64,000 bases of DNA from Actinomycetes bacterium (GTDB lineage Bacteria > Actinomycetota > Actinomycetes > Actinomycetales > Dermatophilaceae). The notes below the pieces were generated by a model. That model saw nothing but the letters and a program-made list of their open reading frames with translations, was not told the origin of the DNA and did no database searches. The stretch's first letter is position 1; each line of letters opens with the position of its first letter. Below are positions 1,889 to 63,445 of this stretch, in pieces. Position numbers and translations under genes: made by a program. The DNA is taken from contig JAKPEG010000225.1 of the NCBI GenBank assembly GCA_029552065.1, positions 1 to 64,000 on the forward strand. Reading direction: 5' to 3'.

Positions 1889-4186
1889 ATGCTCACGGCA
1901 TACACGGAGGACACCCCGCTCACCCGGCTGGTGGCCAAGGGGGCGGCGTCCGCGCTCGCGACGAACAAGGGGCTGCGCACCGTCGGCGAGCTGCTCGACT
2001 TCGTGCCCCGCCGCTACCTGCGGCCCAACGAGCTCACCGACCTCGGCGATCTGCGCGAGGGCGAGGACGTCATGGTCGTCGCCGAGGTCGAGCGCGCCCA
2101 GACAGTGCCGATGCGCGCCCGCCGGGGTTTCCGGACCACCGCGGTGCTCACCGACGGCCGGGCCCAGCTCGACGTCACCCTCTTCGCGAAACGGCCGTGG
2201 GACTTCGGTCTCACGGCAGGCAAGTGGGGCGTCTTCGCGGGCACGGTCACCCGCTACGGCGGGCGTCTGCAGCTCACCCACCCCGAGATGGAACTCATGG
2301 ACGAGAGCCTCTCGGCCGAGCGCGCGGACTACCTGCGCACCCACCAGGTCCCCGTCTACTCGACGACCGGCAAGGTCACCTCCTTCAAACTGCGCCAACT
2401 CGTCGCTCTCGCCCTCGACGCGGTGGACGAGATCCGCGAACCGATCCCGCCGGAGGTGCTCGCCCGGCGGGACCTGCCCGGTCGGCGCGCCGCCCTCGAG
2501 CGCGTCCACCGGCCCGCCCTGCACACCTGCGTCGAGCCGGGTCTGCGCCGGCTGCGCTATGACGAGGCATTCGTCCTGCAGACGATCCTGGGCCAACGCC
2601 GCAGGGCCGCGCGGGCACGGCATACGGCAGCCCGTATGCCGCGTGCCGGCGGGCTGCTCGCGGCCTTCGACACGCGGTTGCCCTTCGCCCTCACGGCCGG
2701 GCAGCGGGAGGTGGGGGAGCTGCTGGCCGCCGAGCTCGCGGCGCAGGTGCCCATGCATCGGCTGCTCCAGGGCGAGGTCGGTTCGGGCAAGACGGTCGTT
2801 GCCCTGCGCGCCATGCTCGCGGTCATCGACGCCGGTGGACAGGCCGCCCTGCTCGCACCCACCGAGGTGTTGGCCGCCCAGCACCACCGGACGATCACGG
2901 CGATGCTCGGCGACCTCGCGATGGGCGGGATGCTCGGCGGCGCCGAAAGCGGGACCCGGGTGGCCCTGCTCACCGGCAGCCAGACGACCGCGGCGCGCAA
3001 GGCCGCCCTCGCCGACGCCGTGAGCGGTGCGGCCGGAATCGTCGTCGGCACGCACGCGCTCATCCAGCGGCACGTCGGCTTCCACGACCTCGCCCTCGTC
3101 GTCGTCGACGAGCAGCACCGGTTCGGAGTCGAACAGCGAGATGCGTTGCGCGAGAAGGGAACGACGCCGCCACACCTGCTCGTGATGACCGCGACCCCCA
3201 TCCCGCGGACGGTCGCGATGACCGTCTTCGGCGACATGGAGACGGCCACCTTGCGGGAGCTGCCCCGCGGTCGGCAACCGATCGACACCCACGTCGTCGA
3301 TGCCGCCCGGCCGGGGTGGGTCGAGCGGACCTGGGCGCGGGTTGCCGAGGAGGTCGGCAAGGGTCACCAGATCTACGTCGTGTGCCCGAAGATCGGTGAT
3401 CCCACCGACGGTTCGGTGCTCACGGCGGACACGTCCGACGAGGACGCCGGCTGGGCGGATGAGGGGCACGACGGGGTCGCCGGTGAGGGGGCCGGCGCGG
3501 GCGGCGAGCGGCCCGGCGCGGGCGGCGAGATGGTCGGCGACGGGGTCGCGGGTGAGGCCGGCGAACGGCCGTTGGCCGGGGTGTATGCCGTGGCCGACCT
3601 CCTGCGAGCGCACCCGGCGCTCGGCGAGCTGCGGATCGAGGTGCTCCACGGACGGCTGCCCGCGGAGGTCAAGGAGCGCGTGATGGCCGACTTCGGGACC
3701 GGACGGATCGATGTTCTCGTCGCCACGACGGTCGTCGAGGTGGGCGTGGACGTGCCGAATGCGAGCACCATGGTGGTCATGGACGCCGACCGGTTCGGGA
3801 TCTCGCAACTGCATCAGCTGCGTGGCCGGGTGGGTCGCGGCTCGGCCAAGGGCCTGTGCCTGCTCATGACCTCGAGCGAGCTCCCGGTGGCACGTGAGCG
3901 GCTCGAGGCGGTCGCCGCGACGAACGACGGTTTCGAGCTGGCTCGGCGCGACCTCGAGCTGCGGCGCGAGGGCGACGTACTCGGTGGCCGGCAGAGCGGT
4001 CGCGGGTCGGCGGTCCGCTTCCTGCGGATGGGGCACCGCGACGACGAGGAGCTCATCGCCGCCGCCCGCGAGGACGCCTTCGAGCTGCTCGACCGCGATC
4101 CGGACTTGGCCGACCATCCGGTGCTGGCCGCCCGGGTGGCCGCCCGCCTGGACGAGGACCAGGCGGCTTATCTGGAGCGGGGCTGA
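1889..4186 (+). CDS. recG: ATP-dependent DNA helicase RecG
   Basis: Branch-migration helicase that remodels stalled forks and Holliday junctions. An OB-fold wedge domain occupies about residues 50-150. Helicase domain 1 has Walker A GEVGSGKT (about residue 294) and the DEQH box (about 407). Helicase domain 2 carries the TTVVEVGVDVPNA and QLHQLRGRVGRG motifs. The protein is 765 aa from ATG 1889; GTG 1871, overlapping the upstream stop, would add six residues. Domain 2 contains a 50-60-residue Gly/Glu/Ala-rich low-complexity insertion (about nt 3410-3570). The stop overlaps the rsmD start by one base. Confidence 0.95.
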   Translation: MLTAYTEDTPLTRLVAKGAASALATNKGLRTVGELLDFVPRRYLRPNELTDLGDLREGEDVMVVAEVERAQTVPMRARRGFRTTAVLTDGRAQLDVTLFAKRPWDFGLTAGKWGVFAGTVTRYGGRLQLTHPEMELMDESLSAERADYLRTHQVPVYSTTGKVTSFKLRQLVALALDAVDEIREPIPPEVLARRDLPGRRAALERVHRPALHTCVEPGLRRLRYDEAFVLQTILGQRRRAARARHTAARMPRAGGLLAAFDTRLPFALTAGQREVGELLAAELAAQVPMHRLLQGEVGSGKTVVALRAMLAVIDAGGQAALLAPTEVLAAQHHRTITAMLGDLAMGGMLGGAESGTRVALLTGSQTTAARKAALADAVSGAAGIVVGTHALIQRHVGFHDLALVVVDEQHRFGVEQRDALREKGTTPPHLLVMTATPIPRTVAMTVFGDMETATLRELPRGRQPIDTHVVDAARPGWVERTWARVAEEVGKGHQIYVVCPKIGDPTDGSVLTADTSDEDAGWADEGHDGVAGEGAGAGGERPGAGGEMVGDGVAGEAGERPLAGVYAVADLLRAHPALGELRIEVLHGRLPAEVKERVMADFGTGRIDVLVATTVVEVGVDVPNASTMVVMDADRFGISQLHQLRGRVGRGSAKGLCLLMTSSELPVARERLEAVAATNDGFELARRDLELRREGDVLGGRQSGRGSAVRFLRMGHRDDEELIAAAREDAFELLDRDPDLADHPVLAARVAARLDEDQAAYLERG
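2618..2641. repeat. Inverted pair of the GGCATAC motif inside recG
   Basis: CGGCATACGG (2618-2627) and CCGTATGCCG (2632-2641) form a perfect 10-bp stem with a 4-nt loop inside recG. It is made of two opposed copies of the 7-mer that recurs throughout the window. Confidence 0.7.
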
Positions 4187-4770
4187 TGACCCGGATCATC
4201 AGTGGCAGCGCGGGAGGGCGACAGCTGTCCACTCCGCCGGGTGCGCGCACCCGCCCGACCTCCGACCGGGTCCGCGAGGCGGTGTTCTCCCGGCTCGACC
4301 ACCTCGACGTGCTCGCCGGCGCGCGGGTGCTCGACCTGTTCGCCGGCTCCGGGGCGCTCGGGCTCGAGGCGGCCAGCCGCGGGGCGAGTTCGGTCGTCCT
4401 CGTCGAGTCGGACCGCACCGCTGCGGCCGTCATCCGGGCCAATGCCCGGGCGGTCGGCTTCGGCGAGCGGGTGCTCGTCCTGGCCGACCTCGCCGAACGT
4501 GCCCTGCTCTCCGGGGCCGCCGAGGACGAGCGCTTCGACGTCGTCTTCCTCGACCCGCCCTACGAACTGCCCGAGGACCGGCTCGCCGACGTGCTCACCC
4601 TCCTCGTCGTCCACCGGTGGCTCGCGGCGGATGCCCTCGTCGTCGTCGAGCGGTCGGCGCGCTCGCCGGAGCCACGGTGGCCTGCCGGGCTCGAGTCCTC
4701 GGAGCAGCGGCGCTACGGCGAGACCACCGTGTGGTTCGCCCAGGTGCCCGAGCCGCAGGAGGTGGCGTGA
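4186..4770 (+). CDS. rsmD: 16S rRNA (guanine(966)-N(2))-methyltransferase RsmD
   Basis: Rossmann-fold SAM methyltransferase of 194 aa that modifies G966 in helix 31 of 16S rRNA. Visible marks are the N-terminal RIISGSAGGRQL segment, the TRPTSDRVREAVFS region, the SAM-binding VLDLFAGSGALGLEA loop and the catalytic DPPY motif (about residue 124). ATG overlaps the recG stop (TGATG), so translation is probably coupled. The recG-rsmD-coaD order is conserved in actinobacteria. Confidence 0.94.
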   Translation: MTRIISGSAGGRQLSTPPGARTRPTSDRVREAVFSRLDHLDVLAGARVLDLFAGSGALGLEAASRGASSVVLVESDRTAAAVIRANARAVGFGERVLVLADLAERALLSGAAEDERFDVVFLDPPYELPEDRLADVLTLLVVHRWLAADALVVVERSARSPEPRWPAGLESSEQRRYGETTVWFAQVPEPQEVA

Positions 4771-60898: not shown

Positions 60899-60910
60899 GG
60901 CGTGATCCGG

Positions 60911-61606
60911 ATGCGCATCGACGTCGTGACGATCTTCCCCGACTATCTCGCGCCGCTGCGGCTCTCGCTCATCGGCAAGGCGGTCGAGTCAGGCCCGGTC
61001 GACCTGCGGGTGCATGACCTGCGCGAGCACACCCACGACCGGCACCGGACGGTCGACGACACTCCCTATGGCGGGGGAGCGGGGATGGTGATGCGGCCCG
61101 AGCCGTGGGGCGAGGCGCTCGATGCACTGGTCGCCTCGGCGCCGGTCGCCGGCAGCGTCCCGCGGCTGCTCGTGCCCACCCCCTCCGGTATGCCGTTCAC
61201 CCAGGCGATGGCGCGCGAGCTCGCCGGGGAGCCGTGGCTGGCCTTCGCCTGCGGGCGTTACGAGGGCATCGACGAGCGGGTGCTCGTGGACGCCGCGACC
61301 CGGATGACCGTCACGCCGGTGTCGCTCGGCGACTACGTGCTCAACGGGGGCGAGGTCGCCGTGCTCGCCATCGTCGAGGCCGTCGCCCGGCTGCTGCCCG
61401 GTGTGATCGGCAATGCCGAGAGTCTCGTCGAGGAGTCGCACGAGGACGGGCTGCTCGAATACCCGGTCTATACCAAGCCGGCGTCCTGGCGCGGGCTCGA
61501 CGTGCCCGAGGTGCTGCTGTCGGGCAACCACGGCGCGATCGCCGGATGGCGGCATACCCAGCGGCTCGAACGGACCCGCGCCCGGCGTCCCGACCTGTTG
61601 GACTGA
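60911..61606 (+). CDS. trmD: tRNA (guanosine(37)-N1)-methyltransferase TrmD
   Basis: SPOUT methyltransferase (about 231 aa) making m1G37, which prevents +1 frameshifting. It has [37 protein letters not shown] and [13 protein letters not shown] of the trefoil knot. ATG 60911 has GAGG at 10 bp; GTG 60902 is an alternative. Normally rplS follows at once; here a palindrome-bounded segment intervenes. Confidence 0.94.
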
Positions 61607-61642
61607 GGCTGCTCGCGGGGTCTCTCATACGGTCACCCTCCC

Positions 61643-61684
61643 CGCTATGCCGAACGTGCGTCCTCGCGCACGTTCGGCATAGCG
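61643..61684. repeat. Palindromic repeat copy 1 (18-bp perfect arms) after trmD
   Basis: Arms 61643-61660 and 61667-61684 are exact reverse complements around loop TCCTCG. The same palindrome recurs at 62792-62843 with the loop reversed (CGAGGA). A GC-rich stem without a T-run; it may terminate trmD transcription. Confidence 0.92.
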
Positions 61685-61771
61685 CTGCGGGGTCTGGCCG
61701 CGGGAGCTGTGGATATCCCAGCAGCCGTGCGACCCCGATCGGGCACCCTGGTACACACGGCCGGCGCACCA

Positions 61772-61852
61772 CCTCCCGGTGCGCCGGCCGACCCGGCCCC
61801 TCCCGGTGCGCCGGTCGACTCGGCCCCTACCGGTGCGCCGGCCGGTGCCCGT
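61772..61852 (+). repeat. 27-bp tandem repeat upstream of the endonuclease-like gene
   Basis: Units at 61772-61798, 61799-61825 and a degenerate 61826-61852. In the frame of the following gene they would encode PPGAPADPA-type repeats. The frame is open from ATG 61709, so these residues could belong to a longer N-terminus. Confidence 0.85.
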
Positions 61853-61876
61853 GAGGGGAGGCATCAGGGGGACGCG

Positions 61877-62836
61877 GTGACGAGCAGGCAGGCCATCGAG
61901 CGGGCCAGACGCGCCCGTATCGCGACCGAACTCGCGGCGATCCACGGTGGGGTCGTCCATCGTCGGGACCTGGCCCGCGCCGGGGTGGACCGGTTCGGGA
62001 TCCGCACCGAAGTGGCGGCGGGGCGCTGGGCGCTGGCCGGACGGCATACCGTCGTGGTGGGAGCGCCGGCCCCCGCCGGGATCGGACGCGGCTGGCAGGC
62101 GGTCTGGGAATCCGGCTCGGGTGCGGTCCTCGACGGCGCGGCCGCCCTCCTGGCCGCAGGACTCACCGGCTTCGAGCCGGCAGCCCTCGACGTGTGGGTG
62201 CCTCCACGCAGCACCGCCCGGCCGATGCCGGGGGTCACCCTGCATCGCTACCGCGCGGCCCCGTGGGTGCGGGTCGGCGGGCTGCCGCGGGTGGTCCCGG
62301 AGTGGGCGACGATCCACGCCGCGCAGTGGGCGGTGAGCGATCGGCAGGCGGCGCTGCTGGTCTGCCTGCCAGTGCAACAGCGGCTCGTGCCACCCGACCG
62401 ACTGCTGGCGGCCTGGGAATCGGTCGGCCGCTCTCCGCGACGTGAGGTGCTCTCGGCGGTGATCCCCGACGTGTGTGACGGGGCTCAATCGCTCGGCGAA
62501 CTCGATTTCGGGCGATGGTGCCGGCGTTATCGCCTGCCGCGGCCTCGGCGCCAGACCTTGCGGGTGCTCGACCGCGGCCGTGCTTCGATCGCCTTTCTCG
62601 ACGTCGAGTTCGACGGTCTCGTCGTCGAGATCGACGGGGCCCAGCATCTGTTCGGGCTCACGCCGGTCGAGGATGCCCTGCGCGCCAACGACCTCGTGCT
62701 AGCGGGCAAAGAGCGGGTGCTGCGCCTGCCCGTCCTGGGCCTGCGGCTGGCCCCCGACGCGTTCATGGCCCAGGTCGCCCGGGGCCTGGGACTTCCCGCT
62801 ATGCCGAACGTGCGCGAGGACGCACGTTCGGCATAG
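61877..62836 (+). CDS. DUF559/Vsr-like endonuclease-domain protein with an AbiEi-like N-terminus
   Basis: A 319-aa protein. The N-terminal wHTH-like part (about 10-60; IHGGVVHRRDLARAGVDRFGI) resembles AbiEi-type antitoxin modules. The C-terminal PD-(D/E)xK-like domain has DVEFDGLVVEIDGAQH (about 240-256) and ERVLRLPVLGLRL, as in DUF559/Vsr-like proteins common in actinobacteria. GTG 61877 has AGGGGGA upstream. The last eleven or so codons, including TAG, lie inside palindrome copy 2. Biochemical role unknown. Confidence 0.8.
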   Translation: MTSRQAIERARRARIATELAAIHGGVVHRRDLARAGVDRFGIRTEVAAGRWALAGRHTVVVGAPAPAGIGRGWQAVWESGSGAVLDGAAALLAAGLTGFEPAALDVWVPPRSTARPMPGVTLHRYRAAPWVRVGGLPRVVPEWATIHAAQWAVSDRQAALLVCLPVQQRLVPPDRLLAAWESVGRSPRREVLSAVIPDVCDGAQSLGELDFGRWCRRYRLPRPRRQTLRVLDRGRASIAFLDVEFDGLVVEIDGAQHLFGLTPVEDALRANDLVLAGKERVLRLPVLGLRLAPDAFMAQVARGLGLPAMPNVREDARSA

Positions 62837-62843
62837 CGGGAAG
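62792..62843. repeat. Palindromic repeat copy 2 (23-bp perfect arms) before rplS
   Basis: Arms 62792-62814 and 62821-62843 are exact reverse complements around CGAGGA. It contains the stop codon of the endonuclease-like gene (62834-62836). Its orientation is opposite to copy 1. Confidence 0.93.
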
Positions 62844-62879
62844 GGAGGGAGACAGGGAGGGAGACAGGGGAGGGAGAGG
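62838..62879 (+). repeat. Polypurine G-run tract (possible G-quadruplex)
   Basis: All purine except two C. GGGAGGGAGACA is repeated, giving at least six GGG runs separated by 1-5 nt on the coding strand, between the palindrome and the rplS promoter-like element. Confidence 0.75.
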
Positions 62880-62915
62880 TGGGTGTCGGTGCCCCATCGA
62901 TTTCCCCGGGGCCCC

Positions 62916-62934
62916 GGGCTCTGGCACACTTGGG
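62916..62934 (+). promoter_or_regulatory. Promoter-like element upstream of rplS
   Basis: GGGCTCTGGCACACTTGGG matches the element ahead of rpsP. It suggests rplS has its own promoter now that it is separated from trmD; the leader would be about 150 nt and contains a GGCATAC motif at 63028. Confidence 0.45.
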
Positions 62935-63088
62935 AGGTTGCCATCCGGCACCAGAGCAGCCCCTGCCACAGGGGGAGCGAAGCGGACCACTCGGACACCG
63001 GGAGGGCCGACGCGCGGCCGGCCGGACGGCATACGACAGACGACACCACCCGAGGCGACCTGTGGCGCCACGAGAAAGCGAAGCGACC

Positions 63089-63445
63089 ATGCACCACCTC
63101 GACGACGTCGACGCCGCGAGCCTACGCTCGGACATCCCCGCCTTCCGCGCCGGGGACACCCTCAAGGTCCATGTGAAGGTCATCGAAGGCAACCGCTCCC
63201 GGATCCAGGTCTTCCAGGGCATCGTCATCCGCCGTCACGGGTCGGGCGTGGGCGAGACCTTCACCGTCCGCAAGGTCTCCTTCGGCGTGGGCGTCGAGCG
63301 GACCTTCCCCGTGCACACCCCGATCATCGACAAGATCGAGGTGCTCACCCGCGGCGACGTGCGCCGCGCCAAGCTCTACTACCTCCGCGACCTGCGCGGC
63401 AAGGCCGCCAAGATCAAGGAGAAGCGCGAGAGCGTCACCAAGTGA
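63089..63445 (+). CDS. rplS: 50S ribosomal protein L19
   Basis: A 118-aa L19 located at the 30S-50S interface. It has [48 protein letters not shown] and the C-terminal [18 protein letters not shown]. Length normal. Followed by lepB, as in most actinobacteria. Confidence 0.96.

Follow-up and report, generated by a model that had tools for sequence, protein, structure and literature searches.

Palindrome-bracketed genes for AbiEi-like, Vsr-type nucleases in Actinomycetota: a candidate REPtron-like system at a trmD-rplS junction

The trmD and rplS genes in the window (the whole 64,000-nucleotide stretch analysed here) are separated by 1.48 kb, from the trmD stop at 61606 to the rplS start at 63089. 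This interval holds a palindrome, a nuclease-like gene and a second palindrome (Table 1), a split that had been noticed in a preliminary description of this DNA and is confirmed by the window coordinates. The open reading frame is real, with DUF559/Vsr-type residues and a GTG start after AGGGGG. The three repeats with 27-bp spacing upstream of the gene (61758-61844) were not seen to take any part in the wider palindrome-nuclease system. The rplS leader (62904-63088) carries a conserved CCCCTGCCACAGGGGGAG ... CGACCTGTGGCGCC pattern, which is common to distant genera, and a search of this leader against Rfam matched no family.

Table 1. Coordinates of the features at the trmD-rplS junction, in window numbering.
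Feature	Position	Strand	Remarks
trmD, left neighbour	60902..61606	+	ORF and sequence; next to rplS in congener G031
Upstream cognate palindrome, 42 bp	61643..61684		18-bp perfect arms, loop TCCTCG; covariance model 69.7 bits
Three imperfect repeats, 27-bp spacing	61758..61844	+	between upstream palindrome and gene start; family D1
AbiEi-like winged-helix + DUF559/Vsr-type nuclease gene	61877..62836	+	319 aa, GTG start after AGGGGG
Nuclease domain	62480..62788	+	invariant E207, D241, E250, H256, D265
Downstream cognate palindrome	62792..62843		23-bp perfect arms, loop CGAGGA; covariance model 69.7 bits
rplS promoter-like and leader region	62904..63088	+	alignable with congener empty site (ATTTCCC...CCCCTGCCACAGGGGGAGCG...CGACCTGTGGCGCC)
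rplS, right neighbour	63089..63445	+	ORF

The 42-bp core of the downstream palindrome (62797-62838) is identical to the upstream palindrome and lies in the opposite orientation, so that its loop CGAGGA is the reverse complement of the upstream loop TCCTCG. The earlier picture of one palindrome in inverse orientation, with 18-bp and 23-bp arms, an identical core and a reversed loop, is therefore accurate. The stop codon of the nuclease gene sits within the downstream palindrome. Folded as single-stranded DNA, the two window palindromes are much stronger than their shuffled counterparts, with z values of -9.5 and -11.9. Allowing up to three mismatches, TATGCCGAACGTGCG matches the window 7 times where 2.2 matches are expected, and none of 100 shuffles reaches this number.

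Residues of the window nuclease are numbered from the codon at 61880. The residues E207, D241, E250, H256 and D265 are unchanged in all 55 members compared, and D252 is kept in 50 of them. The window protein matches only AbiEi_4 in Pfam, below threshold, and gives nothing above the curated cut-off for DUF559; among 55 relatives, AbiEi_4 was found in 22 and DUF559 in 18 (E-values up to 0.1; best 1.8e-4). These matches refine the DUF559/Vsr label given previously. The NCBIfam scan gave the window protein no name, and no Y1 transposase was found in the 55 members by Pfam and NCBIfam scans. The AbiEi models of PADLOC match 51 of the 55 members and its methyl-directed restriction enzyme model matches 39. 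Comparison of the C-terminal part with profiles of solved structures yielded PvuRts1I and AbaSI at marginal E-values, with the D...ExD..HH residues aligned. The AlphaFold2 model of the window protein has a mean pLDDT of 93.5. Entries 6y8q and 1zel lead its Foldseek matches, the proteins being M. tuberculosis Rv2827c and the S. agalactiae antitoxin AbiEi. Each of these proteins binds to 23-bp inverted repeats within its own promoter (PMC7319586), which makes recognition of the palindrome by the window protein plausible. Based on the domain matches, the fold and the invariant residues, the window protein joins an AbiEi-like DNA-binding part to a nuclease of the Vsr/DUF559 type, and the nuclease part looks active. 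Inspection of the neighbours of the window gene, trmD and rplS, revealed no AbiEii nucleotidyltransferase toxin. A plasmid search for the nuclease gave no match. A nuclease with 53% identity is encoded at 3694-4539 of the unannotated 7.6-kb 'Bacteriophage sp.' record MT837139.1, reflecting either phage carriage or contamination.

An empty site was found in the congener G031, as had been suggested for checking. The trmD-rplS gap is about 237 bp in this genome, and both the nuclease gene and the palindrome are absent. Some 20 bp past the trmD stop, the sequence begins to align with the window's promoter and leader of rplS. Short trmD-rplS gaps are also present in G052, G088 and G005.

The nuclease family is present in 93 of 120 genomes of the taxonomic family, often in several copies, some of them with stops. 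A strict finder of perfect palindromes (36 of 84 loci) missed many pairs with imperfect interiors, so the best ungapped match between the upstream and downstream flanks was adopted as the measure, with a score of at least 17 as the pass. When the flanks of the 84 loci were compared, the best match was usually a palindrome on both sides, with a sequence specific to the locus. With narrower flanks, a matched pair was found at 63 of 82 family loci, versus 1 of 161 control intervals, which were shifted along the same DNA; cross-locus flank controls reached the pass in 7 of 400 comparisons in one set and 0 of 252 in another. About a quarter of the family loci have no matching pair. Further, mostly more distant relatives in the order and phylum passed at 25 of 32 distinct places. 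The median gap between palindrome and gene is 126 bp on the upstream side and 39 bp on the downstream side. The preliminary description had allowed that all relatives might carry the gene without palindromes; on the contrary, other genes of the DUF559 type have palindrome pairs of their own. Its inverse orientation holds at the window locus but is not the general rule, as 38 pairs are direct and 19 inverted.

The palindromes differ from gene to gene. The window genome contains five genes of the wider family with five different palindrome pairs, and the palindromes of different genes are dissimilar even where the proteins are 70-80% identical. At the orthologous locus L085/L089, where the flanks are 75-90% and the proteins 75% identical, both palindromes differ between the species. 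Both are likewise switched at L140/L125, with the outer GGGTGT conserved. The two copies within a locus stay matched, indicating either concerted evolution or joint replacement. Judged at the sequence level, the palindrome is private to each gene, a point that lies beyond the preliminary description. No recognition domain stood out when palindrome similarity was compared with each protein domain by Mantel tests.

The palindrome also occurs away from the gene. A covariance model of the window palindrome found 10 places in its own assembly, the pair at the gene plus eight solitary copies, so that the palindrome recurs elsewhere in the genome, which had been proposed as a check. The assembly is a 3.65-Mb draft in 239 contigs, 88% complete with 6% contamination, and a few of the solitary copies could therefore be foreign. 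The same model gave few and weak matches over 60 genomes of the family except in G006, which belongs to another genus and where it found 13 places, including two bracketing the nuclease gene of that genome. Alignment of the flanks in the window genome (G000, 10 copies) and G006 (13 copies) revealed that exactly 42 bp, CGCT...AGCG, are common to the copies and that the flanks are unrelated. Compensatory changes in both arms distinguish the G000 palindromes from those of G006. The congener lacking the gene gave one weak match to the window model. The different palindrome of the C120 paralogue was found at three solitary places, all of which have both arms correctly spaced. Dispersal is also seen in the complete genome G102, for the palindromes of L097 and L103, and in G114, for the L074 and L077 palindromes. 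The congeners G040 and G077 gave no L097 palindrome, nor were the G102 palindromes found in G040. In these comparisons the copies go with the gene; weak matches to the L103 palindrome family in G077 are consistent with its own gene L113 using a similar palindrome. The copy numbers, about 10-13, are low compared with classical REPs.

Many solitary copies are only 3-23 bp away from the 3' end of a gene, the genes being predicted by a simple codon-composition rule, and one copy overlaps a stop codon; such a position would suit terminators as well. REPs have also been reported mostly just past gene ends (PMC3733652, PMC8266576). On contig C150 of the same assembly (L285), an enzyme-like gene unrelated to the nuclease stands between window-type palindromes at 1501-1542 and 2473-2514. 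A palindrome there covers the stop of that gene, giving the ending PAMPDVTGGARLA, which closely resembles the PAMPNVREDARSA of the nuclease itself. A decayed nuclease gene was sought between this pair and not found; the bracketed gene is possibly a passenger, or there by chance.

Tandem palindromes beside the gene always have one orientation and are spaced 61-65 bp from centre to centre in 15 of 19 intervals, the others being 72, 74, 98 or 107 bp. The palindromes and the spacers differ in sequence among the cases spaced at 61-65 bp. Solitary arrays follow the same pattern: two independent arrays in G020 (L310 and L311) have an exact 62-bp period with different spacers, and the G102 arrays have a 65-bp period. 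Six and seven helical turns would measure about 63 and 73.5 bp, which suggests a geometry set by a protein. A moved unit of 63 bp with the palindrome at its centre was considered and abandoned, as the solitary copies have only 42 bp in common.

Similar palindromes accompany sister genes at unrelated loci in four pairs (L087/L089, L079/L086, L074/L075 and L069/L070), and the DNA similarity in all four is limited to the unit. Palindrome-free empty sites were found at trmD-rplS in G031, at the L097 site in G040 and, in two congeners, at the L077 site; these relatives are 75-85% identical, so that the insertion joint can be placed only approximately. The L140 site in G040 contains a different gene. 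Target-site duplications, which the preliminary description had listed for checking, were not detected at 19 solitary copies, where lengths of 2-12 showed no excess over shuffles. Long candidate duplications at L097 and L077 are repeated spacers, which fit local tandem duplication, and were rejected, the 19-copy test being negative. The empty site, the dispersed 42-bp unit and the other pairs support the earlier suggestion that the nuclease gene is enclosed in a small mobile unit or a REP/MITE-like pair, with movement itself as the probable explanation.

Based on these findings, we propose a REPtron-like selfish system, to which we assign a probability of roughly 0.6, in which the AbiEi-Vsr nuclease would recognise and spread its private palindrome and the whole unit would sometimes move. 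The selfish unit would consist of palindrome, nuclease gene and palindrome. The AbiEi-like N-terminal part, probably dimeric, would recognise its own palindrome, either as a duplex inverted repeat or as an extruded hairpin, and the Vsr-type domain would cut at or near it. Repair or rejoining would then copy the palindrome to new places, generating the solitary 42-bp copies, of which those surviving would mostly lie just past gene ends or about 63 bp from an existing copy. The entire unit would relocate now and then, for example between trmD and rplS, and drift of the recognition specificity would be fast enough to give every gene a private palindrome. The sequences themselves display the pairing, its gene-specificity and joint change, the 42-bp unit and its dispersal, the empty sites, the relatives at unrelated loci and the conserved active site; binding and cutting by the protein as the cause of the spread, and transposition as well, are inferred from them.

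The main rival is an operator role, in which an AbiEi-type autoregulator is bound on both sides of its gene with looping, the solitary copies are a regulon or decoys, and the nuclease targets other DNA, such as phage or modified DNA. The promoter binding of AbiEi and Rv2827c described above (PMC7319586), the AbiEi profiles in 51 and the methyl-directed restriction enzyme profile in 39 of the 55 members, and the median of 126 bp between upstream copy and gene all speak for such a role. However, an operator would require neither the second copy beyond the gene nor a sharply delimited 42-bp unit in unrelated flanks, the 3' ends of genes and not promoters are where many solitary copies sit (one over a stop codon), and the window gene has no adjacent toxin partner; we therefore regard this explanation as unlikely. 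Next comes homing, with the solitary palindrome as the target and the gene entering through double-strand-break repair to end up flanked by two copies. The EDxHD homing endonucleases are a recognised family whose catalytic motif is related to PD-(D/E)XK (PMC6083498), and two whole flanking palindromes are the expected repair product at a pre-existing palindrome. A possible remnant palindrome was also seen at the L079 site in G071 (L249), which gene loss would fit too. The empty sites at trmD-rplS, L097 and L077 are nevertheless free of palindromes, albeit in diverged relatives only, and homing alone leaves the arrival of the palindrome in new, unrelated flanks unexplained, making it somewhat less probable still than the operator.

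Ordinary terminator or insulator hairpins on either side of the gene are the least probable of the rivals, with only a very slim chance. Strong hairpins do occur near the stop codons, and actinobacterial terminators may lack T-runs. A terminator would, however, not be expected to have the identical sequence on both sides of the gene (63/82 versus 1/161), to belong to a homologous 42-bp family, or to change jointly with its partner copy at an orthologous locus. With about 10 places in the 3.65-Mb assembly, the palindrome is not a terminator found after most operons, the possibility that the preliminary description had set against its own reading.

The proposed selfish system resembles the REPtrons (RAYT/TnpAREP) in several respects. 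These also combine an enzyme gene with adjacent cognate palindromes that are dispersed as well, mostly past gene ends (PMC3733652, PMC8266576), and several enzyme-palindrome pairs likewise occur per genome. REPtrons use a HUH tyrosine transposase, whereas the enzyme here is an AbiEi-DUF559/Vsr nuclease; their GTAG foot is absent here, the 42-bp units beginning with CGCT and ending with AGCG, and the palindromes here are longer (about 40-50 bp) and low-copy. The system is therefore not a REPtron by membership, though REPtron-like in its working. In addition, TnpAREP is usually single-copy with no evidence of mobility (PMC8266576), unlike the nuclease genes here, which lie at unrelated loci. The AbiE type IV toxin-antitoxin antitoxins (AbiEi and Rv2827c) have the N-terminal winged helix and the AbiEi-like fold in common with the window protein, the known inverted-repeat binding being theirs. 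The window protein differs in its C-terminal nuclease with an invariant active site, in palindromes on both sides and dispersed, and in the lack of AbiEii; with no toxin neighbour, it does not form an AbiE toxin-antitoxin pair. The modification-dependent nucleases PvuRts1I/AbaSI and mREase_II contain a similar nuclease domain with D...ExD..HH aligned, but no base-modification reader was seen here, the N-terminal part is another one, and the association with palindromes is particular to this system. Similar to EDxHD homing endonucleases such as I-Bth0305I, the nuclease gene is free-standing and patchily distributed, with a related catalytic motif; it differs in having paired and dispersed cognate palindromes, no intron or intein and no fixed conserved host target gene. 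TIRtrons, which are tyrosine transposases with long inverted repeats (PMC3733652), likewise possess gene-specific bracketing repeats, maybe of a dispersed family; their enzyme is unrelated, and the flanking repeats here are palindromes, more often direct than inverted. The lack of a target-site duplication separates the unit from a classical insertion sequence. No description of a palindrome-bracketed AbiEi-DUF559/Vsr system was found in the open-access literature, which was the scope of the search.

There is a substantial chance that the palindrome-nuclease system merits a class of its own. Such a class would join an AbiEi-type DNA-binding fold to a Vsr-type nuclease, be widespread in Actinomycetota, and recognise and propagate short gene-private hairpin palindromes at a constant interval of about six helical turns. 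Enzyme and palindrome would co-evolve rapidly, and the origin would be independent of the HUH (RAYT) transposases; we advance this full definition tentatively, at slightly less than even odds. If it is true, dispersed palindromic repeats are not solely the work of HUH transposases, and a restriction-enzyme-like nuclease does likewise, independently and across a phylum. Recognition specificity in the nuclease family would have changed many times, and many multi-copy actinobacterial genes annotated just as 'DUF559' or 'AbiEi family antitoxin' would be explained. With its own palindrome for each gene and several natural pairs per genome, the family would offer a ready set of orthogonal protein-DNA recognition pairs.

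A separate observation concerns the octamer GTATGCCG / CGGCATAC, which occurs 67 times in the window on both strands versus about 2 expected, that is about once per kb and equally on the two strands. The shorter GTATGCC is found at 68 window places (for example 61187, 61550, 62042 and 63027), followed by G in 67 of the 68. This 7-mer is enriched in many other genera of the family and absent from some, and the octamer resembles a DNA-uptake-type or other genome-wide signal.
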